In this document: positions 2,352 to 46,810 of the stretch, piece by piece | Layout: each line of letters opens with the position of its first letter | Position numbering within the stretch: the first letter of the stretch is position 1 | From: Mugil cephalus | Lineage: Eukaryota; Chordata; Actinopteri; Mugiliformes; Mugilidae | Assembly (NCBI RefSeq): GCF_022458985.1 | Contig: NC_061771.1 | Coordinates: 13,493,001 to 13,557,000 of the forward strand | Direction: 5' to 3' | Length of the DNA stretch: 64,000 nucleotides | The notes under the pieces: model-generated | Seen by the model: only the letters and a program-made list of their open reading frames with translations | What the model was told of the DNA's origin: nothing | Databases searched by the model: none | Made by a program: the position numbers and the translations under genes

Positions 2352-7058
<4,707 letters not shown>

Positions 7059-25085: not shown

Positions 25086-25363
25086 ATGGGGACCCTCATA
25101 TTCCTTCTCCTACTAGCAGGTATTTGTGGAGTGTGTATTTGTGTGTGCGTGTGTGTTTGTAGAAGAATAAGATCAAGTGAGAATTAATGTATGCTAATTT
25201 TGAATAATTATAAATGGGGAAGAACATTTGAAACTGTGAAAATTTCACTTGAAATTGCAATCTATCAGAAAAACAAAAATGATTTTATTAACTTCATGTC
25301 CTGTTTTTTCTCTACTAGGACTAGTGGGAATGACATCAGCTCAATTAAATAACATGACATCAG
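25086..25363 (+). CDS. Mucin exons 1-2: signal peptide
   Basis: Exon 1 (25086-25119) gives MGTLIFLLLLA and leaves in phase 1. Exon 2 (25319-25363) gives GLVGMTSAQLNNMTS and also leaves in phase 1. Together they form a clear signal peptide with likely cleavage after TSA. Splitting the signal peptide over two tiny exons allows this start, which a single-frame scan would miss. Confidence 0.8.
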
Positions 25364-28300
25364 GTAAAACACACACCAGTCAGTATTTAACATGCAGAAA
25401 CATTACATTACATATAATATTAACTTATGTTAAAAGTGTATCCCTATTGCGCTATAGGTAATCTATTGAGTAACTTAACTGGTCTCTAGTCTACAGTAAT
25501 AGGTAGTCATAAAGTTGGAGCAAACTAATGGGATTACTTTGTTTAGTATTAAATAGTAATAGGATGAGCAGGAGGATGAGGTGTAGAAATGTTTTAGTTT
25601 GATCTACACCAATTTTTCAAAAAACACAGCATCACATTTTAATATGTTTGTTTTTTTCATCACCAGCAAACATGACTACCTCATCACCAGCAGGCAATGA
25701 GACATCACTAGCATTTAATGCAACCTCGTCACCAGCAGGCAATGAGACATCACTAGCAGTTAATACAACCTCATCACCAGCAGGCAATGAGACATCACCA
25801 GCAGGCAATGCGACATCACCAGCAGTTAATGCAACCTCATCACCAGCAGGCAATGAGACATCACCAGCAGTTAATGCAACCTCACCACTAGCAGGCAATG
25901 AGACATCATCATCAGTTAATGCAACCTCATCACCAGAAGTTAATGTAACCTCATCACCAGCAGGCAATGAGACATCACCAGCAGTTAATGCAACCTCATC
26001 ACCAGCAGGCAATGAGACATCACCAGCAGTTAATGCAACCTCATCACTAGCAGGCAATGAGACATCACCAGCAGTTAATACAACCTCATCACCAGAAGTT
26101 AATGCAACCTCATCACCAGCAGGCAATGAGACATCACCAGCAGTTAATGCAACCTCATCACCAGAAGTTAATGCAACCTCATCACCAGAAGTTAATGCAA
26201 CCTCATCACCAGCAGGCAATGAGACATCACCAGCAGGCAATGAGACATCACCAGCAGGCAATGAGACATCACCAGCAGTTAATGCAACCTCATCACCAGC
26301 AGGCAATGAGACATCACCATCAGTTAATGCAACCTCATCACCAGAAGTTAATGTAACCTCATCACCAGCAGGCAATGCGACATCACCAGCAGTTAATGCA
26401 ACCTCATCACCAGAAGTTAATGCAACCTCATCACCAGAAGTTAATGCAACCTCATCACCAGCAGGCAATGAGACATCACCAGCAGTTAATGCAACCTCAT
26501 CACCAGCAGGCAATGAGACATCACCATCAGTTAATGCAACCTCATCACCAGAAGTTAATGTAACCTCATCACCAGCAGGCAATGCGACATCACCAGCAGT
26601 TAATGCAACCTCATCACCAGAAGTTAATGCAACCTCATCACCAGAAGTTAATGCAACGTCATCACCAGCAGGCAATGAGACATCACCAGCAGTTAATGCA
26701 ACCTCATCACCAGCAGGCAATGAGACATCACCAGCAGTTAATGCAACCTCATCACCAGAAGTTAATGCAACCTCATCACCAGCAGGCAATGAGACATCAC
26801 CAGCAGTTAATGCAACCTCATCACCAGAAGTTAATGCAACATTATCACCAGCAGGCAATGCAACCACACCACTAGCAGGCAATGAGACATCACCATCAGT
26901 AAATGCAACCTCATCACCAGCAGGCAATGAGACATCACCACCAGCAGTAAATGCAACTTCATCACCAGCAAGCAATGAGACTTCATCACCAGCAGTTAAT
27001 GCAACCTCACCACCAGCAGTCAACGAGACATCACCAGCAATTAATGCAACCTCGCCACCAACAGTCAATGAGACATCACCATCAGTTAATGCAACCTCAT
27101 CACCAGCAGGCAACGAGACATCACCAGCAGTTAATGCAACCTCATCACCAGAAGTTAATGGGACCTCACAACCACCAGCCACCACATTGCCATCTCAAGG
27201 TAATGAAATCCTTGTTACAGTTACTATATCACTGCATTCATGCATTTATTTCCATATCTAGGTAATAAACTCAACTCATTTACTTTTACATACAATACAT
27301 ACCCCAAATTCTTAAAAGATCATATTGATGTGAGAAAACCTTTTTCTCCTTTTGATGGTGGTTTTATGTAAGCGCTTGTGTAAATGACTGAATCAATTCA
27401 GTATAATATCAACCTTAGAACAGCTACCCTTGAAATAAAAACATATTTTTCTTTAAATAAAATGACCATGTCACCACTCAGTGCAACTTGAACAGCGATC
27501 TCACTTAATTACAATTTGCCACCAGACAAACTGTCCCCACCCCCACTCAATGCAATCTCTTCACCAGTACAAATAACCTCACAAACATTTAATATATTCC
27601 TGTCACCACTCACCACAACCTTACTGCCAGTCAACACAATGCAACTCATCCAAATGTTTCAGTCCAACTGCCCTCAATACTGTATCCTCAACAACACTCA
27701 ATGCAGCCCAACAATCAACATGACACAATCTTCACTGAAGGTAACCACCCCAACTACCTGTCTACATCACACTTAGTCACTCTTATTGTGACTACCTATG
27801 TGATGTAGGTAAATAGTCTATTTGTCATCAAATATGACATTTCCAGTTGTACAGACATCAAATAATGCCACGGTGATAATATGCTAATCTCCCTTACCAG
27901 ATTAAAAAAGAAGAAAATTCTATGGATTTAATTTAATGTTTTTAAGTTATTGTTATGGTAAAGACCAAGATCTCAAAAGATGGAGGACAGTTTCTATCAC
28001 ATCTTCAAAATTATGAAAGTATTTGTTTGTATAGCTATGGGAAAACAGTCTCTTAAAATGATCAGCATTGATTAGCGCAACCTTACGTCAAAATAACGTC
28101 ACCCCCATCCACATCATCACCAGTTTTAATTTAACCTTACTACAAATAAACGTTGTATGGCATTACAACATTAACTCCCTACCCACCTGTCAACATGCTC
28201 TTACCTTAAATAATGAAACCTCACTATTGTTTGTTGACATATCACATCACCTTACCGTCTCTATATAGTAGGGGTTGAATGACTTCAGTTTTTTTAAAGT

Positions 28301-31300
28301 CGACTATTATGTGGTGAATATTGATGTTGACTACAGCCACAACAACATCAACTTATAGAACATAACAGTGATACTTGAGCTTATGAATACTCTACACTGC
28401 AGGTATGTTTAGCCTATATACTGTAAATTGAAACCATCAATAGCATTGAATAGTACTTCACACTGTAGATAATATAATGTAGAAGAGATTAAAAAACAGT
28501 GGAATATCCCCCTTAGCCTAGTAACTAATAAATTTAGACAATAAAATTCACCAGCAAATTAGTTATATGCAACCTCCTTCCCTAATTGACTGCTGTCAAG
28601 AGGATTTGGACTGTTCGTCTGCTAGCTTAAGTGGATGCCTTTTCAGACGAGTGTGCATTGCAGTAGCACTTTAGTTGCATTTAAGGGCTGACTTGCATAT
28701 TCTGCATGTAGCTCAATCAAGCTATGCTCGAAATGTAACTTTCTGAATGCAGTCCTTGTCCCAGTTTGCATGCAATGGAGAAAAGGCATCATGGTAAAGC
28801 AGTAGTCCACTATTCAACTAATCGACTAGTCGGTACAACCCTTACTACTACCTCCTCGCCATTAGTGAAATTAAACTCACCTACCTTTAACACAATCTTC
28901 TCAAACGTCAACATAACCACACCCACCACATCAGCAATCTGTTTTGTGGTCTCACTCAGTGCCACCACTCAACATAATATCACTATCATTAACCTACCCT
29001 CACCAGAATTCAGTGCAACCTTGTCACAAATTACCTTGACCTCACCTCAAGTCAACATAAAGTTCTCATCAGTGCATTCCACTCAACATTTCCATGTTTG
29101 AGAATGTAACAAAAGTTTTCACCAAAGAGACCTCATCAATTAAGAAGAACAATCACGCAAAGATATGTAGAGTCTTTTATTTTGAAGTGAGGAATACAAT
29201 TTATTACTCATTTAACTGTTGATTCCCTTATTTTTCTTCATGCGTGTAATGAATCCTCATCATCATACCACAGTCAACCTGACCTCACCACTGCACAATG
29301 GAACCTTTGCACCCACCAACCTAACCTTACCACCACTAAATACAACCTCGCCACCCATCAACATGACCTTACCACCAGTAAATGCAACTATGCCATCCAT
29401 CAATATGACCTTACCACTACTCAATGGAACCTCACCAACCATTAACATGAGCTCAACACCACTCAATACAACCTTTCCACCCACCAACCTAACCTTACCA
29501 CCACTAAATGCAACTTCACCACCCATCAATATAACCTCACCACTCACCAACATCACTTTATCACCACTCAATGGAACCTCGCCATCCATCAACATAACCT
29601 CACCAACACTCAACGCAACCTTTCCACCAATCAACATGACCTCACCACCACTCAATGGAACCTTGCCACCCATTAACATGACCATACCACCACTAAATGC
29701 AACCTTGCCACCCATCAATATGACCTCACCACCACTAAATTCAACCTCACCACCCATGAACATGACCTTACGACCACTAAATACAACCTCGCCACCCATC
29801 AACATGACCTTACCACCAGTAAATGCAACTATGCCATCCATCAATATGACCTTACCACCACTCAATGGAACCTCACCAACCATTAACATGACCTCAACAC
29901 CACTCAATACAACCTTTCCACCCATCAACATGACCTCACCACCACTGAATGGAACCTCGGCACCCATCAGCATGACATCACCACCACTCAACGCAACTTC
30001 GCTACCCACCAACATGACCTTGCTACCAGTTAATGCAACTTTGCCACCGATCAACATGACCTCGCCACCACTAAATGCATCCTCGACACCCATCAACATG
30101 ACCTCACCACCACTCAACGCAACCTCACCACCCATCAACATGACCTTACCACCAGTAAATGCATCCTCACCACCCATCAACATGACCTCACCACCACTCA
30201 ATGGAACCTCACCACCACTCAACGCAACCTCACCACCCATCAACATGATCTTACCACCACTAAATGCAACCTCACCACCCATCAACATAACCTTACCACC
30301 ACTAAATGCAACCTCGCCAGCCATCAACATGACCTTACCACCAGTAAATGCAACCTCTCCACCCATTAACATGACCTTACCACCAGTAAATGCAACTTTG
30401 CCATCCATCAATATGACCTTACCACCAGTAAATGCAACTTTGCCACCCATCAACATGACCTCACCACCACTCAATGGAACCTCAGCACCCATCAGCATGA
30501 CATCACCACAACTCAATGCAACCTCGCTACCCACCAACATGACCTTGCTACCAGTAAATGCAACTTTGCCACTGATCAACATGACCTCGCCACCACTAAA
30601 TGCAACCTCACCACCTATCAACATGACCTCACCACCATTCAACGCAACCTTTCCACCCATCAACATGACTTTATCACCACTCAATGGAACCTCGCCACCA
30701 ATCAACATGACCTCACCAACACCAAATGCCACCTTGCCACCCATCAACATGACCTCACCTCTGCTAAATACAACCTCACCACCACTCAATGTAACCACGC
30801 CACCACCAATCTCCAACATGTCACCACCAGGTAATTAAGCAGCAGAACTTATTTTTTAATAACTACACCTCATCTAGATGTGGTACTGTACCATGGATTA
30901 ATATACTTTTGGGCAGCGTGATTTCTCTTTAAGCATATGCAACATCAGCCCAACTGGTGTTCTGCCAATGGGAACTGCCCCATCAGTACTCAACAGTCAA
31001 TCTTGGATATAACTTGCAGCAACAATTGATGGCACAGCAAGAAAACCAATTGCCTAAAGAATTTGGCCAACACCACTCAATACCACATCCTCACTAAAAA
31101 AAAATAAATATAACAAATTCACCACTGCTCAATATAACCCCTCATCACCACCTAGTGCAAGCCCACCAGTAGCGTCCTCATAACTAGTCAGCATAACCTC
31201 ACCACCACTCAATGAAACAATGCCGCCTGTCAATACGACCTCAACCCTTTAATGCAACTACACCAGTGGTGAAATTAAACTCACCCACAGTCAACACAAC

Positions 31301-34300
31301 CCTCCCACCAGTGAAACCTAAACTCATTGTCACCTACTGAAACCTTACCAGTAGTCAGCGTGACCTCAACATAAGACAGCATAACATTACCAACAGTCCC
31401 TTCCTCCTCAACGCCACCAATCACCCAATGCCACTGCAAGCTATGATATACTAAAATGTTATAGAGATCACATCAAGTGCCTAAATACTGCAGCTACTAT
31501 CAATTCACCAATGAAATATTGCCATTAGTAGATAAGTAAAACGCATGTTTTGAAATAAATCTTCTGAGTTTCAGAGAGTGTTAACATCTCCTTGGAAAAA
31601 CGCTGGACACATAATTCATAACTCATAGCTTCCTTGTTCGTTATTGTGCATCATTATTAGATTCCCCATCATTTCTTTGCGCAGTTCGTAATGCTGTCCT
31701 GTTCTTTCTGCTAAACATGGACTTACTTCTAGGCACCACAAATGGAACATCTTCACCATCAACAATGCCTACTGCCATTCCGACTACCACCACAACAGCT
31801 GCACCACCACAACCACCTAAAATTAATTTGGGATTTAAGTTGCAGAAAACCTTTACAGAAGAACTTAATAACCCTTCCTCACCACAGTTCAAAGCTTTGG
31901 AAAATGAAGTAACCACAGCGGTGAGTTTATGCAGATCTCTGTATTTGTTAAAATGTGAAAACTTGTAACTCTGACTATTGTGCATGTTGTTTGTGTCATG
32001 TGAGGAACACATGACAGATTATCATAATTGAATATGTAAAATTTATCTCTCTTTACAAAGCAATAAACATGCAAGAAATATGTGTAATACATGTCTTCAA
32101 GTTTTTACTTTTTTATTTTATAAAATTCATTCACAGCTCAACGAGGTTTATAAAAGGCAATATGGACCTAGTTTCAATCAGACTAACGTCAGAGGATTCA
32201 GGTATATTACCTTGCTTCTTTTATCAGATTTTTAAAAGGTCTTTACTCTGATGTTAAAAAATTGAAAGGTAAAACAGTTGAGAGTGACGAGAGGTGTTTT
32301 AATATGTTTTCTGTCACAGGAGTGGTTCCATTGTGGCAGATGTTGACCTGATATTCAACGAGGGGGAGCCCCTACCCAATGCCACTTCAGCAGCGGACAC
32401 TCTGGTGGCTGCTGTTTCTAGCGGAAACTTTTCCCTCAATGTCAACACATCATCTATTACAGCAACTGGTAAGAGGGTCCAACTGGTCACAAGAGCAAGA
32501 CCAAACCTTTACATTAGAAAATAAATCCTATCAGAGAATAGATGATCTATATGTGATAAGTGAATGATCGTCCATATCAGCTGATAGTCCATCTGATGCA
32601 TCCCATGATCCCAATCTCATTTAATGGGTCTCATTGAAGCAGCTTTAAGCTGGCAATCTTTGCTGTTTCCTCTGAATGCTACTTTGTAGCCCACCTCCAC
32701 ACCTTGTCATTGTTTTTTCCCCTATCTGTTTCTGTTCAGATGTTGTTTCTATGTCATTGATGTCTGCTATGTTCTGTATCCCAAGTCCTCTTTGCTGCTA
32801 TTCTCCCTTGAATTAGCTTTTCATGTAGGCACATGGAAGTACAGGGATGTGTCCTAACCCTGCCCTTCCATGTGCTTATGTGGGAAACCTAAAGTAGGGA
32901 AGTCTCAGAACAGAGGCATGTCAAAAAAACTTACTACATATGGTAATAATGTTTTTGTTTGACTTAAGTGGTCCTGACTGAACTTTTATTTTCAGTTGTG
33001 GAGACACCAACTGAAGCCCCTGTCACAGTTGTACCTTCCACTTCAGTTTCAATTCCCATTTCAGGTAAGAGAGAGTGAAGCAGGTTTATTAAATACTTGA
33101 CTTCAACAACAAATAAAAAAAGAAAAACAAAACAAATATTGAAAATATTACACAAACATAAGTAGCATAAATTTATGTTTCCCTTATTTTTCTCCACCGG
33201 GGTAATGCAATCTCATCACCAGTCAACGTGACCTCATCACCTGTCAACGTGACCTCACCACCAGTCAACATGACCTCACCACCAGCCAACATGACGTCGC
33301 CACCACTCAACATAACCTCACCACCAGTCAACATGACCTCACCACCAGTCAACATGACCTCTCCTCCACCAGTCAACATGACGTCACCACCAGTCAACAT
33401 GACCTCTCCTCCACCAGTCAACATGACGTCACCACCAGTCAACATGACCTCTCCTCCACCAGTCAACATGACGTCACCACCAGTCAACATGACCTCTCCT
33501 CCACCAGTCAACATGACGTCACCACCACTCAACATAACCTCACCACCAGTCAACATGACCTCTCCTCCACCAGTCAACATGACCTCACCACCAGTCAACA
33601 TGACCTCTCCTCCACCAGTCAACATGACGTCACCACCAGTCAACATGACCTCTCCTCCACCAGTCAACATGACGTCACCACCACTCAACATAACCTCACC
33701 ACCAGTCAACATGACGTCACCACCAGTCAACATGACCTCTCCTCCACCAGTCAACATGACGTCACCACCAGTCAACATGACCTCTCCTCCACCAGTCAAC
33801 ATGACGTCACCACCAGTCAACATGACCTCACCACCAGTCAACATGACCTCTCCTCCACCAGTCAACATGACGTCACCACCAGTCAACATGACCTCTCCTC
33901 CACCAGTCAACATGACGTCACCACCACTCAACATAACCTCACCACCAGTCAACATGACCTCTCCTCCACCAGTCAACATGACCTCACCACCAGTCAACAT
34001 GACCTCTCCTCCACCAGTCAACATGACGTCACCACCAGTCAACATGACCTCTCCTCCCCAGTCAACATGACGTCACCACCACTCAACATAACCTCACCAC
34101 CAGTCAACATGACGTCACCACCAGTCAACATGACCTCTCCTCCACCAGTCAACATGACGTCACCACCAGTCAACATGACCTCTCCTCCACCAGTCAACAT
34201 GACGTCACCACCAGTCAACATGACCTCTCCTCCAGTGACACCATCCTCACCACCAGTCAACATGACCTCACCACCACTCAACATGACCTCACCACCAGTC

Positions 34301-37300
34301 AACATGACGTCACCACCACTCAACATGACCTCACCACCAGTGACACCATCCTCACCACCAGTCAACATGACCTCACCACCAGTCAACATGACATCACCAC
34401 CACCAGTCATCACACCCGTGCCTAGTAAGTATCACGACCAGACTGTAATTTTTCAGACTTTCACTATCAGGTGATTAAATTTGCCCCACTACTAGTAAGA
34501 TCCCCTGTTGACTTTAACCATAACAAACTTAATGTTTTATTGTCTTTTTTTTTCTTTATATACACATATAAAGTATGTGAAACCAGTATTAATTAATATA
34601 ATTCTTCCATTTAACCTTCCCACAAGCAAATGGAACGTCAGCACAGCCAGTTATCACAACTACTACTACTACAACAGCTGCCCCAGTAAACTCAGCAGTC
34701 AGACTTGGATTTAGCTTGGGGCGGACGTTTGAACCAGAACTTGCAAACAGATCCTCTGAAGCGTTCAGGAGTTTAGCAAATACAGTTACAGCATCCGTAA
34801 GTGCATTCTACTTATCCTTATTCTCATGCTAAAAAGAAGCTGTGCCGGCAAGATTGATAAATCTCTCATCCTTACTTTTAGTGGTATTCCTTTATCTGAA
34901 TGTCCCTTTCATTTCTCCAGTTGGACAATGTCTACAGCAGAAGATATGGAAGCCGCTACCGGGGATCTAGGGTCACTTCTTTCCGGTATTAAAAACTATG
35001 GAAAATGTATCACTTGCATGCATGTGTTAAAGAAAGTTATCAAAAATGCACCGATTGGACCGATTGTCCATTTTATTCATTGAATTTTGTTATTACAAAA
35101 ATGTCTGCTGTAAGATGTAATATAATGTGAAACTAAGCAGTAACTATGAAAAAAAAACTCTTTTGCAGGCAAGGTTCAGTTGTGGTAGATGCTGAGTTGA
35201 TATTTAACAATGCCAGCACAGTTCCAGAAGCTAGTGATGTGGAAGTCGGTCTAATAGAGGCAGCAACCAACTCTTCTAACTTCTCCCTCCCAGTGAACAT
35301 TTCAACTATTGCTGCAACAAGTAAGTGTTGTTCTGTATACGCTGTACAGTATGTGAAGCTGGATGTATTACAGGACCCAGAAGCTAAAGGAAACCTGACA
35401 ACAATCTGATTTTTGTTTCTACAGGAATTATTACTACATCTGCCCCAACTGCAGCTCCAACCGCAGCACCTAATGCTACAGTTGCCCCAACCGCAGCACC
35501 CAATGCTACAGTGGCCCCTACCGCAGCACCTAATGCTACAGAGGCCTTTACGGCAGCACCCAATGCTACAGTGGCCCCTACCGCAGCACCCAATGCTACA
35601 GATGCCCCAACCATGGCTCCCAATGCTACAGTTGCCCCAACCGCAGCTCCCAATGCTACAGTTGCCCCAACCATGGCTCCCAATGCTACAGTTGCCCCAA
35701 CCATGGCTCCCAATGCTACAGTTGGCCCAACCGCAGCTCCCAATGCTACAGAGGCCCCAACCATGGCTCCCAATGCTACAGTTGCCTCAACCATGGCTCC
35801 CAATGTTACAGTTGCCTCAACCGCAGCTCCCAATACTACAGTTGCCTCAACCGCAGCTCCCAATGCTACAGTCACAACTGCAACCACCACTGCATCCACA
35901 GATCCACCTTACCACGAGGACACTTGCCTCACATCATCTCACCAAACATTTACTCCAGTTGCCCCAGATCTTGCCAATTCATCTTCACCAGCTTTCCGGG
36001 CCTTGGCTGCAACTGTGGTCAGAGAGGTAAGATTTCCATGAAGTGTATTATAACAGCAAACTCATTCCCATAAAAATCTTCTATTTAGACCAAATTAAAA
36101 AAAAAAAAGGCAGGTTTAACTTTGACTGGAGCAGTTGACATCATAGTAACTTTTACTTTTTCAGCAAAATTACTTTTCCTAATACATTTCAGCCTCGCCA
36201 TGGCCAGTTAATATAGGACAATTTATGTTGCTGATGTTGTCTTACTCATGTAGCTCATTGTTAGCTTGTGTAAAGCTGCCTACAAATCAACAAAAACTGA
36301 GCATTTGTGGCAACCCATGAAAATCAAAATTACAATTATTTTGTCTTTCAGATAAACAGAGTGGCTAGAAGTGTGTATGGATCACTGTTTCTTCGCTCCC
36401 TTGTTAACTCATTCAGGTAAGACCTAATTTCAGCCATGTCAAAACTTTTCCCGCAATTTGTTGGTTACTTGCTTTTTAAAAAGTTTTTCTTTCTCCTCTT
36501 GTTTTAGGAGTGGATCAGTGGTTGCTAATACGACTCTTGTGTTCAGAGACCAAGCCTCAGCTCCTTCTTCAAGCAATGTGACCACGGAATTCACACGTGA
36601 ACTTACCAGCAACACTAGTTCCCTGAACGTTATAGCAGGCAGCATTACTGCAAGTAAGAATAAAAGTCGCATGGGATTTATCTGCTTACTCATGTCTTTG
36701 ACTTAATTGCATGTTACAGTGTATTTTTGGCTAACCTATTCATATTTGTACAGCTTCCACTTCGACGGCTTCCACTGCAGCTCCCAATGCTACAGATGCC
36801 CCAACCACAACTCCCAATGCTACAGTTGCCTCAACCATGGCTCCCAATGCTACAGATGCCCCAACCACAACTCCTAATGCTACAGTTGCCTCAACCATGG
36901 CTCCCAATACTACAGTTGCCTCAACCATGGCTCCCAATGCTACAGTTGCCTCAACCACAACTCCCAATGCTACAGTTGCCTCAACCGCTGCTCCCAATAC
37001 TACAGTTGCCTCAACCACAGATTCTACTACTTCAGTCACAACTGCAACCACCACTGCATCCACAGATCCACCTTCATTCAATGAGGGGACACTTGGCCTC
37101 ACATTCAGTCTCAACCAAACATTTACATCAGATCTCGCCAATCCATCCTCATCAGCTTTCCAAACCTTGGCTGCAACTGTGGTCAGAGAGGTAAGATTTC
37201 AATACAGTATAGCCATGTGCTACACAAAAAGCAGCCTGTAGCAAATCATCTGTGATGAGTTTGCAGGTCCTGCAGGCAAATTCTGATTAAAAGGTCTCTC

Positions 37301-37913
37301 ATTTCTTACTGTTTTCAAGCATGTACCAATAATACTGTCTTTCAGATAAACATTGTCGGTAGGAGGCTCTATGGCTCAACTTTCCTTCGCTCAATCGTGA
37401 ATGCATTCAGGTAAGACTCAATTTCACTCACTGACTAGTTTTCCTTTACACTATATTTGCATTTGACAAGTGTTTCTTTTCTCTCCTTTTCACTGTAGGA
37501 GTGGATCAGTGGTTGTCGACATGACTCTTGTGTTCAGGGATCAAAACTCAGTTCCTGATCCAAGCACGGCAACTACAGATTTCAGCAATGAACTCAACTC
37601 CACTTCCCTGAATTTCATACCAGGCAGCGTTTCTGCACGTAAGTCACAGCCATTGTGGCATTCATTCATCAAATAAATTATTTAGTCAATGGACACACAG
37701 TCTCAGTTGTGATTACGTGGCCACTGGAAAGTGTACTTGATTTGAACCTGGTAAGAGAGAACTCTAAAACTAGAGAATTTCACTGACTAATACCTTTTCC
37801 TTTTTTATATTTCAGATTCTGCATCAGGCAGTCCTCCTCGGCCCACGACAGCGACTCTGGCTGTCATCACCCTAACACTGGTGGCTGTCACACAGATGTT
37901 GATTAATTTGTAG
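25086..37913 (+). CDS. Large SEA-domain mucin, predicted GPI-anchored; reading frame broken by one base in array 3
   Basis: Not recognised as a named gene. Nineteen coding exons with phase-consistent splice sites: 25086-25119, 25319-25363, 25667-27199, 29274-30830, 31733-31920, 32137-32201, 32320-32468, 32996-33064, 33223-34424, 34627-34796, 34921-34985, 35169-35320, 35425-36026, 36352-36416, 36508-36653, 36754-37190, 37346-37410, 37499-37638 and 37816-37913. The total is 6782 nt, one short of a multiple of three, because one base is missing near 34056-34059; otherwise about 2260 aa. Order: signal peptide (MGTLIFLLLLAG... cleaved near TSA/QLN), arrays 1-2, SEA1, array 3, SEA2, array 4, SEA3, array 5, SEA4, hydrophobic C-terminus ending at the stop. 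SEA plus heavily glycosylated repeats is the plan of membrane mucins. No EGF domain, long TM or cytoplasmic tail is seen. A surface mucin of epithelium is inference. Confidence 0.85.
25667..27199 (+). repeat. Mucin coding array 1: SPAGNETSPAVNAT-type repeats
   Basis: One exon of 511 codons made of variants of SSPAGNETSPAVNAT (15 aa, 45 nt) and SSPEVNAT (8 aa, 24 nt). Almost every unit has N-x-T. Composition is nearly limited to S, P, A, T, N, V, G and E. Higher-order blocks are repeated, for example about 26282-26490 against 26489-26697. The exon is phase 1 at both ends, so it can be gained or lost without a frameshift. The antisense strand and other frames are also open because unit lengths are multiples of three. 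Confidence 0.95.
27200..29273. pseudogene. Decayed array-like stretches inside a mucin intron
   Basis: Patches at about 27515-27780, 28065-28270 and 28840-29100 keep the vocabulary of the arrays (ACCTCACCA, CCACTCAATGCA, GTCAACATAACC; encoding SPPPLNA, NITTPTT and the like). They are irregular, interrupted and lack matching phase-1 splice pairs. They look like old array exons that have decayed. An alternative is rare exons used in other transcripts. Confidence 0.5.
29274..30830 (+). repeat. Mucin coding array 2: (S/L)PP(I/L/V)N(M/A/G)T repeats
   Basis: One exon of 519 codons with repeats such as SPPINMTLPPLNAT, usually 21 or 42 nt, each carrying N-x-T. Phase 1 at both ends (enters as G|TC, leaves CCAG|GTAATT). 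Hydrophobic residues (I, L, M) alternate with Pro, unlike array 1. The acceptor ACCACAG|TCAACC is preceded by only a moderate pyrimidine tract. A 518-codon antisense frame is a by-product of the period. Confidence 0.9.
30831..31732. pseudogene. Mucin intron with decayed array fragments
   Basis: About 31060-31430 has phrases like CACCACTCAATGAAACAATG and GTCAATACGACCTCAACC mixed with stop codons and A-runs. It reads like a degraded copy of array 2. Confidence 0.5.
31733..32468 (+). CDS. Mucin SEA module 1 (exons 31733-31920, 32137-32201, 32320-32468)
   Basis: The first exon has a Thr-rich lead then LGFKLQKTFTEELNNP. The 65-nt exon has LNEVYKRQYGPSF. The third has RSGSIVADVDLIF, ending NTSSITAT. 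SGSIV corresponds to the G|S autocleavage site of SEA domains, which lies between two beta strands. Several N-x-S/T sites are present. It is followed by a small linker exon (32996-33064) of 23 residues. Confidence 0.85.
33223..34424 (+). repeat. Mucin coding array 3: VNMTSPP / VNMTSPPP repeats, with a one-base deletion
   Basis: About 1.2 kb of 21-nt (VNMTSPP) and 24-nt (VNMTSPPP) units, with LNITSPP at regular intervals. Units are almost identical, implying recent expansion. At 34051-34060 the normal CTCCTCCACCAG is CTCCTCCCCAG, one base short. The frame entering at 33223 stops at TGA 34068-34070, while the frame needed for SEA2 is open only downstream of the change. It may be an error, a polymorphism, or bypassed by splicing: CTCTCCTCCCCAG|TC is itself a good acceptor in the right phase. 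Many units contain the palindrome TGACGTCA. Confidence 0.93.
34627..35320 (+). CDS. Mucin SEA module 2 (exons 34627-34796, 34921-34985, 35169-35320)
   Basis: Thr-rich lead, then RLGFSLGRTFEPELANRSS. The 65-nt exon gives LDNVYSRRYGSRYRGSRV. The third exon gives RQGSVVVDAELIFN, with the consensus GSVVV cleavage motif, and ends NISTIAAT. Confidence 0.87.
35425..36653 (+). CDS. Mucin array 4 and SEA module 3
   Basis: Exon 35425-36026 starts with about 14 repeats of the 10-aa type PNATVAPTMA/PNATVAPTAA (30 nt), then a Thr-rich linker and the start of SEA3. Exons 36352-36416 (65 nt) and 36508-36653 complete it, with RSGSVVANTTLVF. Compared with SEA4, the first strand region is altered: it reads CLTSSHQTFTPV where SEA4 has GLTFSLNQTF. 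Several small indels there sum to a multiple of three, so the strand was frameshifted and restored. Confidence 0.83.
36754..37638 (+). CDS. Mucin array 5 and SEA module 4
   Basis: Exon 36754-37190 has about 9 units of the PNATVASTMA/PNATDAPTTT type, then GLTFSLNQTFTSDLANPSS. Exon 37346-37410 is again 65 nt (INIVGRRLYGSTF). Exon 37499-37638 has RSGSVVVDMTLVF. The flanking linker is nearly the same DNA as in module 3, so modules 3 and 4 are a recent tandem duplicate. Confidence 0.86.
37816..37913 (+). CDS. Mucin last exon: hydrophobic tail, GPI-signal-like
   Basis: Encodes SASGSPPRPTTA then TLAVITLTLVAVTQMLINL and the stop. Small residues (S-A-S-G-S), a short polar spacer and a final hydrophobic stretch of about 18 residues with nothing after it are the features of a GPI attachment signal. 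A single-pass TM helix without a cytosolic tail is the alternative. Confidence 0.7.
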
Positions 37914-38369: not shown

Positions 38370-38375
38370 AATAAA
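38370..38375 (+). terminator. Polyadenylation signal of the mucin gene
   Basis: AATAAA about 460 bases after the mucin stop, followed by a GT-rich downstream stretch. An ATTAAA lies further on, near 38644. Confidence 0.6.
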
Positions 38376-38379
38376 ATGA

Positions 38380-40470
38380 TCCTGATCCTGCAGAACCAAT
38401 GATTCATGTTCTGTCAAAACTCATGTTTCAGTTTTTGGAGAATCATCCAGCATCAGGTGAAGGGAGTGTGATGTGGATTGCCTTTAAATGAGCTGCTTAA
38501 AACTAATCTATGTACTATTATCATAATATTCATTTAGAAATATGTTTTGATTGATTATTTGATCAACAATACCTGATGAACACTGGTTCTTCCTGTGTAT
38601 TAAAGGTGGAGTGCTAAAATTGTATTGTTAATCAGCAATAAGTATTAAAATGTTCCCTTAAAAAATATCCTCTTGGTATGTTTTTGCCTTTTCTTTTTTT
38701 AAAAAAAGAAAAAGTTCATAAGAGGAATTGTACATTAATTAAACCTTTATACAAGAACTCACATTGATACCCACATTCGAAAGACTTCACAATTTAAATG
38801 CGCAATAAGCTTTAAATTATATTCTCTTACACTTCACTTGGTTTGAAGGCACAGTACATTTTGAATATATTGCATGCAAGCCTGCAATGATACAGAGAAC
38901 AAGTTTACCAGTATAGACCTATTAATAAAATGTGTAGCTTTGTGTGCTCTATACTGCTATAATGTCTTCCGACTGTCAATAGAATAGACGTTGATACATT
39001 GATGGATGCAAGATGGTTGCTTGCTACTTACCACGGTCTGTTGTACATGTAATAGGAATGTCACACCAGAAGAGGGCTGCATTGCACCGAGGATGATCCA
39101 AACTTGTATGTGCACTGTGTCTATCCCCAAAAAGTTCCATTTAAAGTTTTGTTTAGTTTTCTGTGCAAGCCGAGGTCGAAAAACTCTCATGTTGCCGTTG
39201 GTCATGACTTAGTTTTGATAACAAGTCATGGGCAGTGAGAATAATTAAAAATAAATAAATAAATAAATAAAAGATCCATCAGGGTTTCCTGTGACATTCT
39301 GGTCCTGGAACTCTTAGATTGTTGTGGAACTGTTGTATCACCATAACACTGGGCTTGCGTAGATGTAGAAGCTATCAGTAAGTGCAGGAGGAATGGCATA
39401 AAAATAGTATGTATATTGTGACTTCAACCCTCACCCTGGTTAATATTATTCAATTATTCAGCATCTAATGTTTATGTTAGTATAGCTATGGTCTGATGAA
39501 CTTCATGGAGGCCTCCATGGATAAACCAACCAGTACAAGATAGCAGTACTTTAATTAATTAATTAATATTATTATTATTTTTTTTTTATTTTTTTTTTTT
39601 TGAAAAATGCACCTGAAAGAGGTGGCTGCATGTCACCAGTAGCTCTGTGAACAATAACCTTTTTAGTTTATTCTTAGCCAATCAAAATGGTTTTGGTCAT
39701 TTTTGTCTTTTTGTGCTGTTTTTATTTTGTTTTTCTCTGTACTTTTTGTTTTTTGGCTGTGTTGTTGGTCATTGGCTGTGGTGTTCGGCGGGGCGGCCGT
39801 TGTGTCCAGTGGTGTGTTACTGGTATTGGCTGCTAGTGTTGTCCGTGTCCCCTGAGCTGCCCGGAGTGAGGCCTAAGTGCTTTGGATGCCAGGCTGAGAT
39901 TCCCGCTAAACCTCTGAAGAAGTCCTGGGGATGCCAGGCTGGAGTTGGCGGTGGAGGAGCGGAGAAGGAGCTTCAGGTCGGTGGTGCCGTCTGTCCTCAA
40001 GGGGATCGTGAGGTCTTCAGCAGCAGGATGGACTGTGTGCGCTTGATGGGACCCACAGGGAGTGTGTCATGAGAAGTGCTTTGGAGATCTGGTTCATAGG
40101 ACCACAATACATATGGGCCTAGGAATTTACATCCCTCTCTTACAAGTACAAGGAGACACCATTCAACACATCCATGCTGCTGTTGCTATGCAACTGGTCA
40201 ATCAAACAGCTGAAAACCTCAGTCACTGTTTTTGCCAACTTGCATATAATGCTGATTCTGTAAATTTTTTGATAACATTGTTTATTTTTTTATTTTTATT
40301 TAATTTAATCTCATTTATTTTTTCTTTCTTGTGTTTTATGAGAGTTTTCTTATATGTGCCACTAAGTTCCGGTGACAAAATAATTTCCCTCGTGGATCAT
40401 CTAAGTCTGTCTAAGTCTAACTGACCGGGTCAGCAGCTGTAGGATATATCCACCTGCTCCACAAGTGCTG
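38380..40470. other. Intergenic, no gene recognised
   Basis: AT-rich. It has an AAAT microsatellite near 39246-39272 and T-runs near 39580-39600. The open frame at 39647-40072 shows no domain I recognise and probably belongs to repeat-derived sequence. Confidence 0.45.
40070..40440 (+). mobile_element. Possible LINE 3' end
   Basis: A stretch ending AAAATAATTTCCCTCGTGGA, then TCATCTAAG repeats, resembles the 3' tail of fish non-LTR elements. No reverse transcriptase is visible. This is a weak call from the tail only. Confidence 0.35.
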
Positions 40471-40474
40471 TCCA

Positions 40475-41695
40475 ACATAGCGTTTCCCAACCTTTCTTGA
40501 ACCATGGCACATATTTTACATTAGGCGAATCCCAGAAAAAAATGTGCGAATGTGAAATTTATTTACGTGGTTATGTCACGGTTACGTTTCGCGCGTCGCG
40601 TACTTAACAGCGCTTGTGCGCATGCGTGACCAAGGTACGGTTTCACTAGCACTAGCCATGGCCAAATATGCTTGGGCACGGCACGATTACCTACTGTGAG
40701 TAGTAATAATTAAATATTTGAATATTTTGAATTTGATTAGTAACTTTAATTGAATTATCTGAAGCTCACAATTTTTGTTTTCTTCTGACCACTACTCATA
40801 GTAGGACCTGCATCTGGGTCAGAAATGTTCTCCTGGACCCACTTCGGATTGAGTACCTTTCTTTTCCAGTATTTATCCATCGCTATCACCGCTGTGCCAC
40901 TCGGAGCACCATGACTTGTGCTTTTGACCGAATTCGTGATGTGCGGATCGATACTGCAATATCGACACGTCCGATAACAGGTCTTTATCTATACTTTCGA
41001 TACGTCAGTCATTCAAGGTAATGCCGGAACACAGTGGAAAGTAACTAATTATTGAGATATGGCAACACAACAAACCTTGTGAAACGCATCAGGTTGAACC
41101 ACAACACACTACAGAATACAAGGCATTTATGGTGCGGACAGAAGAGAATTACGATGCACGTTTACTTAAGATGTTCGAGTTTAAAATAAATAAATTACTC
41201 CGATTTCAAACACACTATGTGTTTTTAGGTTTACCAGATTGGATGTATTTACACAAAATATCGGTATTGACTATACCAGACTGAATGTTACTCAGTATCA
41301 GATTGGAAAGGATATCGGTGGTCTCTAACATGACTAGTTGGGGTAGCAACAGGTATATAGACAGGTTAATTGTATACCTTCTGCCATCTAGTGGAAGAGG
41401 ATTTAATTGTTCTGCTTGTCACTATAAATCTCTGGCAAAGCCATAGACAGACTAATTCTCGTCTCTTCTCATCTTCTACTACCCCTTATCCTCACTGGGG
41501 TCTTATGGGTTGCTGGAGCCTGTCCCAGCTCTCATCAGACGAGAGGTGTTGTACACCCTGGACAGTCTGAAAGGCTAATTATTTGCAGTAAATAAATTAT
41601 AATTTTCTGACCAATTAAGTGAAATTGGATAATTTCCCGCATCACACCTGATTTCTCACAGTAGTATGTTGTGGCACAGTGGGGATCACTGGTCC
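40475..41695. mobile_element. hAT-like element with nested repeats
   Basis: The left end reads GCGTTTCCCAACCTTTCTTG then AACCATGGCAC. The right end reads GTGGCACAGTGGGGATCACT then GG. After reverse complementing, these resemble each other (CAGTGATCCCCACTGTGCCAC). Inside are an ATCGATACTG/ATATCGACAC segment near 40945, a matching ATATCGGTAT piece near 41255, and another dispersed repeat at 41470-41575. Family names are from memory. Confidence 0.5.
41465..41578 (+). mobile_element. Dispersed fish repeat fragment
   Basis: CCCCTTATCCTCACTGGGGT, then TTGCTGGAGCCTGTCCCAGCT and GTACACCCTGGACAG. This series is found in a very common fish repeat ('CTTATCC...GCTGGAGCCTATCCCAGCT...ACACCCTGGACAGG'). Fragment only. 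Confidence 0.5.
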
Positions 41696-41699
41696 AAAG

Positions 41700-44600
41700 T
41701 ACTTCTACATTGTGCTGTCTATCTTTTTATGTTTGTCATCTTCTGCTGCTCTGTTTTTGAAGAACAGACAAGTTACTAAAAGGGCTTTACAGGACAGAAT
41801 AATACTGCAAGAAAGTTAAATTGTGCAAACGACCTGTATGGCCACTTCAAACCTTTGTATCTTGGGAATACTCAATCAAATGTTAAGTATTTATGTCATA
41901 CTAAATGTTTTACTTCTCAGCGCGGTAAGTAGTTGCTTCTTGTATTGAGAAATATGTGTCATAATCTTGGGCTGAGTAAAAGCTGCAAAACCACAATTTA
42001 AAAAGTCAGAGACTTCTTTAAGTAACAGTATTATCAGTAAAATGTAATTGAAGTACATTAATACTTCAATATAATATTATTTTCCTCTGAAATGTGAAGA
42101 CTTATTCATTCTACTTGTATGGTATTGTACCTGGCTGTCGCATCTGTGTCTTTTTTGATGTTTAGAGAGTAGCCAAAAGCAATTCCACTGCGCGTGTAAT
42201 GACAATAAGGTTCACTTATGTAATGTTGTTGAAGAAGAAGAAAGTAACCCAAAATTAAAACCCTCACACCAAAGTACAAATTACTTGCAACTGGATTTAC
42301 GCGCTGCCCTTGAGTACATTTCCTTGTAAATGTTTATATGGCAGCACTGAGACAAATCCACCACAGAAAAAAAAACAACAATTTAGGAATAAAATTAATA
42401 GCAAAATAGAATTTGTAGTGACACAGAACAATGCCCATGGTTGTTCCTAATATTCCTGCTGTGCTTTATATTGTGCAGTTTAAATTAAGTCCTCGTTTGT
42501 TAAATTACACTTTAACAAAAGGGAATTACCTTTTGGACTATGTTTACCGGCAACCGTTTGTTCCAGTCCAAGGAGCGTTACCATGCATATAAATTACATT
42601 ATCAATCAAAATTTTGCATACGCTGTTCAATTTTCTGAATTCTCATTACAAAACATTTCTGAATCACGCACATGGACGAGAAATCTATTAAACCGGACGG
42701 TCGGCATAATGTTCCTCTACGAACATATTCAGCACTGAAAATTAGAAACGTAACTTCAAATTCACACAAAGTGACTTGGCAACGGCAGTGTGCCTATTTG
42801 AAGGATCAAACATTAAATGTTCAGCATTGTACCATTAGTCAGTGTTACACTGCTGATAATGAAATGTGTAATCATATAAGACAGGTCACTTCATTTGGAA
42901 CAAAGCGCTGGAATCGACCTCTCCTCTCTCCTCTTTCAGAGACAAAAGAGCAGATGTGCAGCACTCCATCCTGCCTGTAAAACACACTGTCCTGAGAAAA
43001 AAAAAAAAACAAAAAACACTAGTTACTGAGCCAGTGTGCCTTTTACTGCACCCTTCATTAAAAATCCCCCCATGCTTAATTAGAACACATCCGCCGCACT
43101 TGAGATGCGCCTGTCACTGGCTGAGGCCCAAGGTATTCATGCTCGGTAGGCTTGGCCGTGGTCTGTCGCTCACTGAAACACATGAAAGACATGATGTGAG
43201 CTGTTTATAGGAATATGTAGGAAGGGAAGTGGTACCCATGCAAAACTCATTTGAAGTCAAGTAAGTCAATATAATTCCTCCGTTATGAACAATACTTCTT
43301 CCCTCCGTTTTATTCTCTGGAGTTATTTATTTATTGTTTTCACTTTAATTAATGTATTAAGTTAGTAAGGTAAACAAGATGTTATCTTTGGTCTAGACAT
43401 AGTGCCCCTAACAGATTACTTTTACACACTGTGCAGCTGATGACCTTAAGAAAAACCTGTGAAGGAACAGGGGCTCTTAAACTGAGTTACACTGGTCACA
43501 AACTTGTCACAATTGTATAAATCAGGTCCAACCATTGGTGATTCTGCAACAAAACTGCAGGGTTTTACAAAATCTGTAGGAATTTGGTGCTATTATTGAA
43601 TGACTGTTATTGCAATCTCAAAAACACACAATTTTATGACCCAAGCAAATGCAATTAGGGGTTTCATTCAGTAGTCTTAATTCCAAGATTATGATCATGT
43701 TGTATATTTCCTTGTGTTTTTACTGTAGTCACAATGACTGTGTCATTAAAAAAATAGAAAATATAAGCCCTCATGTCACCACTTTTGTTCATTTGAAGTG
43801 AGATGACAGGGGGAGTTGGCAGGAGACTGGATTTTGTTGCTGTGGTTATTGTTGCTTGCTTTCATTAGAGCCCATTTCCCACCTCTCCCGTCTGCCATCT
43901 CGTCTGTGTAAAACCAGGGTTGACAGAACCGCAGTGTGAAGCAGACATGAGGGCAGACGATCATCTCTCTTTTACACAGGTGAGTGCCACTGTTTATTGT
44001 TAGGACCTCGGCTGAACTAGAGTCTGTAAAGTTAGCAGTTAAAATGATTTGCTTGTGATTTTTGGCAAAACCATTAGGTACAAGGACTCTGCCTGAATTA
44101 AAATGCTTTGAATTCGGCTTTTATATATCTGTATTCTTCTCAATGAAAATGGGAACTTTTCCCCTTATTTATGTTTTATATTACATGTCAAAGTCAATAT
44201 CTAATGTGGTGTAAATTAAAGGATTATCTGAATTTTTCGATCGTTATTATCATAGCATTGTTTTTTCCAGTGTTGCTCGGTTCTAAAAACTATGTGTGTG
44301 TATATACATGTATTTTTTTATGCACTAAAAAGCAGTTTTGCCCTAAGCTCGGGAGCAAGATGACACAAAACGCTTCTTTCCCATTATTGTCTACTGATAT
44401 TAAGAAGATACTTTTGTAGCAAATGTCACTGTACGGAAATGAACTATGCAGACATGTTACGACCCAGCTCTGCTTGGGAAAGAGGGAAGCGACATTAAAC
44501 CAGATGTGAATGATGATAGAATTGAGATGAACTGAAAAAACAAATTATGAAATTAAACAGTGGTGTGAGAGAAAGGGGAAAGTAACGGGCATTTCACCCT

Positions 44601-45733
44601 TCTTTCAGTAAACAAATGATAATTCAGTAGGCTTACTTTATGATCACAATAGAAACTAATAAATAAGTATTACAAAATTGCACTGTAAAATGATGTTTTA
44701 CAAATCAGTTTATTGCTTGACCGTTGTGCGGGTACTCCTCTCTCTGAACTAGAGGCATGTCGACCACTATCTGCTGTAGGTAATAACCTGACTGGGGATG
44801 AGTACCTCATACAACCCCATCTCCAAAAATCCAGCCATCCTCTTAAGTGCAATTGGATTTTCAAAGGCCTTACCAAGTGTTTTTTTGTTTTTGTTTTTTT
44901 TTGTTTTGTTTTGTTTTTGTATGCAAGAACCTAATTAATGCAATTATAACTGTTTAAGCTAAACATTTTTTTTTTTTAAATCCTCCTTAGCTCTCCACCT
45001 CATCACTGTATTGCCCCTGTGGAGTTCATTAAAATCTGTTCTAAGTCAGCTGGAACATCTGCTCCCTGCTCACTCCACTGGCACTGGAAATTTAATCTGA
45101 TTTTCTTTGTGTACTGCTCAAACAAACTGTCTTCGCTGGAATTAAATATGTTACTAATATTTACTCACAAGCCTTCAGTACATATAGAGGACAACTCGAC
45201 TTGAGCATTTAATTTTAAATGTGTTTGTCACAATTCGCTGCGGTTGTGAGTAGTTCCACTCCGACAGACCTGATGACATTTGGAGAATTCACTGTCCTCT
45301 TGGGGTACTGCGTATATTGTCTGCAAGTTTACACTTTGTGTTGGACAAGGTTTTGAAAACAAATGCAAAAACTGCCCATATATCTTTCCCCTCATTGTAT
45401 CGAGATCTGGGTTGATGAAAAGCCCACCTGACTTTGATCACCACACCGAGCAGAGATCTTAGATAGGCTGGTTGCATGGGGAAAAGGCTTTTCAGGTCCA
45501 CAGCATTTTGGGATTCATAGGTCAAACTATAGCTCACAGTTTAGAGATTAATCACTGATAAGTTACCATGGAGCAGCAATTGAGTTCGAAACAAACAGAA
45601 TTGTGGGTGGTTTACCCACATTTTCACTGCTAATGTACCATAAATGAGTTAAAGCAAACTGCCATGAAATGCCTCATTCGCTGCAAAGTTATTTCCAACT
45701 GTGTCTGTGTGTTCTGACAGGTTTGATGAGACC
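41700..45733. other. Intergenic / 5' region of the aminergic receptor; no gene recognised
   Basis: No coding exon is supported. A CACAG|GTGAGT donor at 43979-43981 could end a non-coding first exon of the receptor, and an acceptor TTCTGACAG is at 45712-45720. Spliced together, the ATG at 43947 would open a short upstream frame that stops at once in the next exon. This is speculative. Confidence 0.4.
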
Positions 45734-46810
45734 ATGGATAACAGCAGCTTGGGATGGTTCGGAGACGCCAACACATCCCTTCAGAGTGAACTTCAGTCCT
45801 GTGGCACACCAAGGCACCAGGCTTCTCGCATTTTTCTGTACGCCTTTCTCTCTGTTGGAATAGTCAGCACGGTGGTGGGAAACTTCCTGGTGGTCTTGTC
45901 CATCGGTTACTTCAAGCAGCTGCAGTCTCCCACCAACTCCTTCGTCATGTCCCTGGCTGTGGCTGACTGCCTTGTTGGCCTGGTAGTGATGCCATATAGT
46001 ATGGTTCGGACAGTGGAGGGTTGCTGGTACTTTGGTTCCCTTTTTTGCCAGCTTCACTCTAGCCTGGATGTTATGCTCTGCACAGCCTCCATATTCCATC
46101 TGAGCTGCATTTCCTTTGACCGCTATTATGCAGTGTGCAACCCGCTAGTTTACTCCTTGAAGATGTCTCACAGTCGGGTCGCTCTCCTCATTGGTGTATG
46201 TTGGGTTGTACCCATGCTCATATCCTTTGGCCCCATCATGCTCAATCTCCATGTTGCTAGTGAGGAGATGCCGATTCCTCAGGACGCCTGCGTGTTCCTC
46301 GTCAGTCGCACTTACGCAGTCATGGCTTCCTTGGTGGCCTTTTACCTGCCCATGGCTATCATGCTTGTGGCCTACTGGAAGATCTTCAAAGCCGCCAAAC
46401 GGCAGGCCAGGCAGATCAGTGCCATGGAGAGCCAGATGGCTGCCGGAGTGGGCAAGGACTCGAGCAAGAAAAAAAGACACAGGAACACCATGAAGAGAGA
46501 GAGAAAGGCCGCAAAAACTTTAGGCATCATCATGGGGGTTTTCCTTATCTTCTGGATGCCGTTCTTCACGGTCAACATTGTGGACCCATTCATTGAGTAC
46601 AGCACCGAGGTGGTTGTCTGGGATGTATTTTTGTGGTTAGGATATATCAACTCATCTCTAAATCCCTTCCTGTATGGCTTTTTCAACCGCTCGTTTCGTA
46701 GAGCATTCCTCATGTTCATAGGCTGCAGGGTGTGCCTGCCTGGATCATCCTCAGGGATGGATTTATCGCACACAAGGAAAGAGGCTAATGAATGTGCAGA
46801 TCAGCCATAA
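45734..46810 (+). CDS. Class A aminergic GPCR, intermediate between 5-HT4 and trace amine receptors
   Basis: Single-exon receptor of 358 aa, seven TM segments. N50 and D78 mark TM1 and TM2. D112 is the amine-binding Asp in TM3, 129-131 is DRY, W157 marks TM4, C105 and C186 form the usual disulfide pair, 273-276 is FWMP (FWxP in place of CWxP), and 310-314 is NPFLY. TM1-TM3 look TAAR-like (FKQLQSPTN, MPYSMVRTVEGCWYFG). TM5-TM7 look 5-HT4-like (VAFYLP, NIVDPFIEY, WLGYINSSLNPFLYGF, RSFRRAFL). S199, FF 277-278 and N281 line up with 5-HT4 pocket residues. The TAAR TM7 fingerprint (Y/F-x-W-F) is missing. N-glycosylation sites are at N3 and N13. The ATG at 45734 has a better context than 45701, which lies upstream of a likely acceptor. 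The ligand is unknown. Confidence 0.85.
   Translation: MDNSSLGWFGDANTSLQSELQSCGTPRHQASRIFLYAFLSVGIVSTVVGNFLVVLSIGYFKQLQSPTNSFVMSLAVADCLVGLVVMPYSMVRTVEGCWYFGSLFCQLHSSLDVMLCTASIFHLSCISFDRYYAVCNPLVYSLKMSHSRVALLIGVCWVVPMLISFGPIMLNLHVASEEMPIPQDACVFLVSRTYAVMASLVAFYLPMAIMLVAYWKIFKAAKRQARQISAMESQMAAGVGKDSSKKKRHRNTMKRERKAAKTLGIIMGVFLIFWMPFFTVNIVDPFIEYSTEVVVWDVFLWLGYINSSLNPFLYGFFNRSFRRAFLMFIGCRVCLPGSSSGMDLSHTRKEANECADQP

Follow-up and report, generated by a model that had tools for sequence, protein, structure and literature searches.

SEA mucins are usually understood as a barrier combined with signalling, the latter through the tail that is left after shedding. A gene in a 64,000-nt stretch of the Mugil cephalus genome (NC_061771.1, positions 13,493,001 to 13,557,000 of the forward strand; this whole stretch is called the window, and its features are given in its own numbering) raises the question of whether a mucin of this kind may keep its SEA modules and lack such a tail. 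Read from its sequence, the gene is a real SEA mucin, probably anchored by glycosylphosphatidylinositol (GPI). On balance, we favour a secreted-pathway cell-surface mucin of a fish that would combine a signal peptide, a brush of N-glycans, a GPI end and four self-cutting SEA modules, from which the coat could be released stepwise.

Gene model

The 19 exons proposed in a first-pass annotation hold at every splice border, and together they comprise 6,782 nt with a consistent open frame except at one place, in exon 9. The translation leads from a signal-like N-terminus through arrays 1 and 2, which adjoin each other, to SEA1, array 3, SEA2, array 4, SEA3, array 5, SEA4 and a hydrophobic end at the stop.

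25086-37913, + strand: mucin gene, 19 exons, with GT at 18/18 donors and AG at 18/18 acceptors
25086-25363, + strand: exons 1-2, start codon and signal-like segment MGTLIFLLLLAGLVGMTSA followed by QLNNMTS (cleavage point between the two according to our reading), from hydropathy

Within the N-terminal part, no other 19-mer is as hydrophobic as that of the signal-like segment, which has a mean hydropathy of 2.0. The signal peptide claimed at first pass is retained as a hydrophobic, signal-like N-terminal segment, assigned from hydropathy.

Arrays of N-glycosylation sequons

Between the N-terminus and the last SEA module the protein is dominated by five repeat arrays, together about 1,690 residues long, which carry one N-x-S/T sequon per about 7-10 residues. 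The claim of N-x-T-rich arrays is borne out by them.

25667-27199, + strand: exon 3, array 1, units of 7/8 residues (SPAGNET, SPAVNAT, SSPEVNAT), N-x-T at 67/68 Asn (counted starting at residue QLNNMTS in exon 2)
29274-30830, + strand: exon 4, array 2, 7-residue units (PPLNATS, PPINMTL), sequons at 71/72 Asn
33223-34424, + strand: exon 9, array 3, units VNMTSPP and PVNMTSPP, N-x-T at 52/52 Asn (38 and 14 on either side of the frame break)
35457-35872, + strand: array 4, within exon 13, 10-residue unit APTAAPNATV, N-x-T at 14/14 Asn
36778-37020, + strand: array 5, within exon 16, 10-residue unit APNATVASTT, N-x-T at 8/8 Asn

Over the five arrays the sequon holds 212 of 214 Asn, and the whole reading contains 229 sequons. 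When the residues of each array were shuffled (1000 times each for arrays 1-3, 2000 times each for arrays 4 and 5), the observed number of sequons lay beyond every shuffle in arrays 1-4, the shuffle means being 20.7 (array 1), 14.8 (array 2), 7.3 and 2.7 (the two parts of array 3) and 2.9 (array 4). Array 5 has a shuffle mean of 3.3 and all eight of its Asn in sequons, yet the top of its 2000 shuffles is also 8. Chance repeats are ruled out by the in-frame arrays together with sequon counts over all shuffles in arrays 1-4.

The codon changes in array 2 suggest which part of the unit is maintained. In the Asn and Thr codons of the sequon, 3 sequon-destroying changes stand against 18 synonymous ones, whereas the other five codons show 63 non-synonymous and 31 synonymous changes (Fisher p 1.3e-5). 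The comparison covers 68 gapless units sorted into four consensus types, a number of our choosing, with three sequon-keeping Thr-to-Ser changes left out; the units are not independent, two Asn-to-Ser cases being identical units that are probably copies of one block. The sequon thus appears to be what selection keeps in array 2, while the neighbouring codons drift. The share of Pro, Thr and Ser is 41-62 % in arrays 1-4, and what was earlier called a glycan array should be read as an array of putative N-glycan sequons combined with a Pro/Thr/Ser region of O-glycan type.

Remnants of array units were also found in the introns that flank array 2.

27200-29273, + strand: intron 3, decayed array units, 5 hits (shuffle mean 0.01)
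30831-31732, + strand: intron 4, decayed array units, 4 hits (shuffle mean 0.00)

Among the 12 stretches scanned for such units, introns 3 and 4 were positive, 38400-41400 gave one hit and nine gave none. The array therefore probably once extended further, and the exon borders lie inside it. The sequon is kept in 0/5 and 3/4 of the relics of introns 3 and 4, respectively, numbers that are too small, and too biased by the way hits are picked, to be interpreted.

Four SEA modules

The first-pass annotation had counted four SEA modules with G-S-[V/I]-V motifs and had named a hidden Markov model (HMM) search as their check, scores under the threshold counting against them. All four exceed the cut-off of Pfam PF01390 (26.4 bits), and each carries the motif, which here takes the form GS[VI]V[VA].

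31733-32468, + strand: exons 5-7 (31733-31920, 32137-32201, 32320-32468), SEA1, GSIVA with Gly-Ser codons at 32324, 53.8 bits
34627-35320, + strand: exons 10-12, SEA2, GSVVV with Gly-Ser codons at 35173, 59.0 bits
35425-36653, + strand: exons 13-15 with SEA3, GSVVA with Gly-Ser codons at 36512, 40.3 bits
36754-37638, + strand: exons 16-18 with SEA4, the last module, GSVVV with Gly-Ser codons at 37503, 46.2 bits

Every module is built from three exons with phases 1-0, 0-2 and 2-1 (counted downstream of exon 9 as though the frame were kept), and the middle exon measures 65 nt in all four. This common layout suggests that one module was duplicated serially, and it speaks for the gene model being correct. 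The ratio of non-synonymous to synonymous substitution rates (dN/dS) is 0.33-0.50 in four of the six SEA pairs, the remaining two being saturated at synonymous sites. In the two most similar pairs it amounts to 0.44 (SEA1/2, with dS already 1.26) and 0.49 (SEA3/4).

The sequences GSVVV and GSIVA in the SEA loop have been described as a self-cleavage motif (PMC6954182, PMC9564314; these and the papers cited below are drawn on for the passages that bear on the point at hand). The four SEA modules are probably cut by themselves between Gly and Ser, with the halves held together non-covalently. The first strand of SEA3 is altered compared with that of SEA4, and we speculate that this change and the Ala-ending sites of SEA1 and SEA3 could make the modules differ in strength.

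A sequence search of the PDB with SEA4 yielded no significant match, the best being a weak one to ADGRF1 (E value 0.11), and an NCBIfam search returned one irrelevant, sub-threshold match only. The Pfam SEA search over the M. cephalus genome gave only two single-exon matches and missed the window gene itself because its SEA modules are split across three exons; the number of matches was therefore not used.

The C-terminal end

The hydrophobic C-terminus noticed at first pass is present in exon 19 and ends at the stop, and a transmembrane (TM) helix with a cytoplasmic tail is absent from the 19-exon model.

37816-37913, + strand: exon 19, GPI-signal-like end ...HSASGSPPRPTTATLAVITLTLVAVTQMLINL and stop, with SGS as candidate attachment triplet, from composition
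38370-38375, + strand: first AATAAA past the stop, putative polyadenylation signal

The end satisfies a home-made GPI rule with its small triplet SGS, the spacer PPRPTTA and the uncharged hydrophobic segment TLAVITLTLVAVTQMLINL. The rule is passed by 3 of the 309 open reading frame (ORF) ends in the window (ORFs of at least 60 codons), two of the three belonging to the same gene.

These two are the ends reached by reading through past the donors at 27199 (exon 3) and 36653 (exon 15). Short forms with the intron retained at these donors are conceivable, and so is chance.

A related SEA-mucin cluster on C1

Through a weak match of SEA4 on C1 of the same genome (E value 0.88), a second mucin was found whose SEA modules are separated by Thr/Pro-type arrays. 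Searching the genome with the last SEA module and tail of this second mucin returned 74 matches, 73 of which fall on C1 between 43.667 and 43.992 Mb, with a weak one on C21. The cluster extends over about 325 kb and contains genes in both orientations (stretches L009-L014 and L038-L050). Thr/Pro arrays were seen in the C1 stretch that was read (L009, L012), and the 10-kb stretch L011 is array throughout.

Fifteen C1 SEA modules were modelled with the exon phases of the window gene imposed, which all 15 allowed; their middle exon is 62 nt in nine and 65 nt in six. A Pfam scan of five C1 modules placed four over the cut-off and one at 24.3 bits, and one more SEA module of the second mucin, outside the modelled set, has no Gly-Ser at the site when read by eye. 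An HMM built from the 15 modules finds the four SEA modules of the window gene with E values between 1.9e-17 and 4.5e-11; among 2000 shuffles the best reached 0.018.

The ends of the cluster genes bear on the question of the tail. The 12 C1 terminal exons that were read (7 distinct sequences) all end like ASSGVSHKTSLITASCLVLLSWLLSCQQ and stop, with no cytoplasmic tail, and 10 of them (5 of the 7 distinct sequences) pass a GPI rule that was relaxed relative to the one used for the window tail. As a check on query bias, the SEA matches were also grouped by position alone. They fell into 13 runs, of which eight comprise two to four SEA modules, and a tail-less last exon lies within 70-289 nt past the last SEA module in 12 of the 13. 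Window gene and cluster both show a three-exon SEA module, though its phases were imposed in modelling the cluster, and both close with a tail-less exon; in view of the GSII site and the low SEA identity of the cluster modules (below), membership in one family is only a possibility. The tail-less ends of the C1 cluster are the best support for the presumed lipid anchor of the window gene. Taken at first pass to be lineage-restricted, the window gene appears to be part of a larger class within its own genome. The three C1 arrays that were counted either carry few sequons or are short, with 4 sequons in 337 residues, 1 in 403 and 5 in 76. Of the genes read, only the window gene thus has the N-sequon design.

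Within the cluster, at C1:43891.7-43891.95 kb (L012, about 5240-5450), the intron before a last exon may have a GC donor (AG followed by GCAAGT), as judged by eye.

Alternative readings

A number of observations weigh against the reading of the window gene as a GPI-anchored mucin with four self-cutting SEA modules, and three other readings have to be set beside it. The intact reading frame assumed at first pass does not stand, the annotation having overlooked a deletion of one base in array 3.

34051-34070, + strand: repeat unit lacking one base (34051-34061) and the resulting stop TGA (34068-34070) in the literal reading

Exon 9 comprises 1202 bases where the repeat structure calls for 1203; the deleted unit reads CTCCTCCCCAG, and CTCCTCCACCAG is found in 15 of the 17 units of the same type, with one more differing otherwise. 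The assembled frame is broken: read literally, it runs into TGA 34068 after 1495 residues, and the product has a single SEA module and no C-terminal anchor. Taken at face value, this early stop would mean a truncated or null allele, whose soluble product (two arrays, one SEA module and part of array 3) would be shed without an anchor, or whose transcript would undergo nonsense-mediated decay. We regard such an allele as unlikely, since the 19 exons otherwise keep one consistent open frame, dN/dS is 0.44 and 0.49 in the two most similar SEA pairs, and sequence errors are common in tandem arrays. The frame is open both before and after the break; without exon 9 the four SEA modules all lie in a single open frame, 1859 residues long, and an acceptor between 34061 and 34062 would likewise preserve the frame by length. 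The break may stem from an error in the assembly, mark a null allele or be bypassed by frame-preserving splicing, and if the four-SEA protein exists one of these must hold.

The anchor invites two further readings. The hydrophobicity of the window tail is no more than moderate, with 1.95 for its best 19-mer, and Gln and Asn occur in it. Splicing to a further exon for a TM helix and tail had been named at first pass as the finding that would overturn a lipid anchor, and the search for such an exon produced three distinct candidates downstream on the strand of the gene, phase-compatible ORFs in which a basic residue follows a TM-like segment, versus none on the other strand. The best of the three is given here.

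41662-41819, + strand: possible alternative last exon of matching phase, encoding a TM-like segment and a basic tail (GPKYFYIVLSIFLCLSSSAALFLKNRQVTKRALQDRIILQES and stop)

The gene could accordingly be anchored in two ways, with a GPI form ending in exon 19 and a transmembrane form in which exon 18 is spliced to 41662-41819 and so gains a TM segment, a KNR stop-transfer and a basic tail. Although the candidate exon has a pyrimidine-rich acceptor (11/16) and the right phase, encodes a 19-residue segment of mean hydropathy 2.22 ahead of the basic tail, and belongs to a type that occurs 3 times in 7,261 nt here versus twice in 91,263 nt of the other window stretches scanned on both strands, we consider dual anchoring distinctly unlikely. 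The candidate lies 4 kb past exon 18, beyond several polyadenylation signals, and in a genome search it matched only itself, with no second copy. Over all scanned stretches together there are 32 such ORFs in 218,524 nt, a rate of 1.14 per 7,754 nt; the reverse strands of stretches in the C1 cluster region account for 25 of the 32. The cluster genes put a tail-less last exon right after the last SEA module. The least probable of the three readings is a transmembrane mucin with essentially no cytoplasmic tail, whose C-terminal segment remains in the membrane; the uncharged segment of 19-21 residues would suit it, but no basic residue follows, the small-residue triplet and polar spacer suit a GPI signal, and the cluster tails, too, end 1-4 residues beyond their last hydrophobic stretch. 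As for the earlier claim of a lipid anchor without a signalling tail, the tail composition and the tail-less ends of 12 of the 13 runs speak for it, and the downstream TM-plus-tail candidate speaks against it.

The cluster itself is not uniform in what it suggests. Its 12 tails, which represent only 7 distinct sequences, came from a similarity search with a single tail-less query, and two of them (L046 and L047; 2 of the 7 distinct sequences) fail even the relaxed GPI rule. No tail exon follows the run at 43869672; the SEA module that comes next is 19 kb away, across a long array. SEA 43749766, which lies inside one run, is followed by a broken tail piece, and the run that holds it may be two genes. 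The site is GSII in 15/15 modelled C1 SEA modules, as opposed to GS[VI]V in the window gene, and identity between window and C1 SEA modules is 30-34 % on average and at most 37 %; the window gene and the cluster may therefore be different branches. Finally, cleavage of a MUC16 SEA module that was predicted at a similar site was not seen (PMC4456727).

Comparison with known systems

A Pro/Thr/Ser-rich repeat region joined to a SEA domain, the hallmark of SEA mucins, is found in the window gene. Hyosophorin of fish eggs is a cortical-alveolus protein that is cut into repeat units, and it is not known to have SEA modules. ADGRF1 and ADGRF5 are seven-helix receptors that are not known to have such arrays, and CD24 and CD52 are GPI-anchored, densely glycosylated vertebrate surface proteins, very small and not known to have SEA modules or tandem arrays. 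N-glycan tandem repeats are described for flounder hyosophorin (PMC3528131), and the adhesion G protein-coupled receptors (GPCRs) ADGRF1 and ADGRF5 have, like the window gene, SEA modules with GSVVV or GSIVA (PMC6954182).

Among the mucins, human MUC16 has been called the only one with multiple SEA modules (PMC1552070); about 56 of them are predicted, along with a cytoplasmic tail of 32 residues (PMC4456727). The window gene resembles it in having several SEA modules within one mucin. It differs in that these are separated by glycan arrays and carry GS[VI]V sites, whereas the penultimate SEA module of MUC16 has DSVLV (PMC4456727), and in that its main model is without TM plus tail. The long SEA run whose last members bear PLARRVDR or DSVLV, by which MUC16 is recognized in the same source, is not found in the window gene with its four array-separated modules. 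With mucins of the MUC1/MUC13 type it shares a signal peptide, a repeat region and a membrane-adjacent SEA module with a site of the GSVVV type (MUC1), and it differs from them in its four SEA modules instead of one, its sequon arrays and its tail-less hydrophobic C-terminus.

A possible precedent for a tail-less SEA mucin is the chicken MUC1-related SEA protein, in which a Pro/Thr/Ser region precedes the SEA module and no TM domain was identified according to the passage cited (PMC1552070); one SEA module is mentioned there, unlike the four of the window gene, and the N-terminal region of the chicken protein lies in a gap. The gilthead sea bream I-Muc (JQ277712) is a membrane mucin of fish with a SEA module and no clear mammalian orthologue in the account given (PMC3680472). 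Compared by description only, it differs from the window gene in being reported with a TM segment followed by a cytoplasmic tail, for which 26-52 residues is quoted as the range over three mucins (PMC3680472). Among the titles and abstract openings that literature searches returned, with most subscription journals outside coverage, none points to a GPI-anchored SEA mucin or to a cluster of tail-less SEA mucins in fish.

Proposed mechanism and significance

In the proposed scheme the signal peptide would direct the protein into the endoplasmic reticulum, where the five arrays would receive N-glycans on their sequons and probably O-glycans on Pro/Thr/Ser, giving a stiff hydrated brush. The last ~30 residues would act as a GPI signal, a step suggested by the sequence and by the related cluster: at the small-residue triplet downstream of SEA4, a transamidase would exchange the hydrophobic end for a lipid anchor. 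The four SEA modules would be cut between Gly and Ser and stay joined non-covalently. Mechanical load or a protease could then free everything distal to the failing module, so that a shorter coat would stay behind without any signalling fragment; stepwise release by successive failure of the SEA modules is plausible on this basis.

A broader proposal is advanced only tentatively, and we think it rather less probable than its opposite: fish would hold a separate class of membrane mucins, with many genes, serial self-cutting SEA modules between glycan arrays, a lipid anchor and no signalling tail, of which the window gene would be the member with a selected N-sequon brush (one sequon per 7-10 residues) and a coat shortened stepwise. 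If this were true, the self-cutting SEA module would have been kept and the tail dropped, so that shedding would be separated from signalling and SEA cleavage would serve a purpose even where it only releases the coat. A brush of mucin type could then also be built in a second way, from N-sequon arrays. The C1 cluster provides an easy comparative test in other fish. In aquaculture disease, the mucosal surfaces of fish form a main barrier.

Genomic surroundings and further loci

Upstream of the mucin gene lies a METTL14-like motif at 12271. Downstream, an alpha-1 adrenergic receptor exon (adra1d) was found on the minus strand at 57055-56018. The mucin gene does not directly adjoin it, since an amine GPCR in a single frame, closest in the PDB to the serotonin-4 receptor and TAAR1, lies between them at 45668-46807.

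Elsewhere in the genome, the two single-exon SEA matches named above exceed the Pfam cut-off, at C12:19268143 (L001) and C17:12705382 (L002); they may belong to interphotoreceptor matrix proteoglycans. Furthermore, 19 of the 43 matches of an off-by-one, and hence uninformative, pattern fall within one 85-kb stretch at C14:25.483-25.569 Mb with repeats that look Thr-rich, perhaps another mucin locus.

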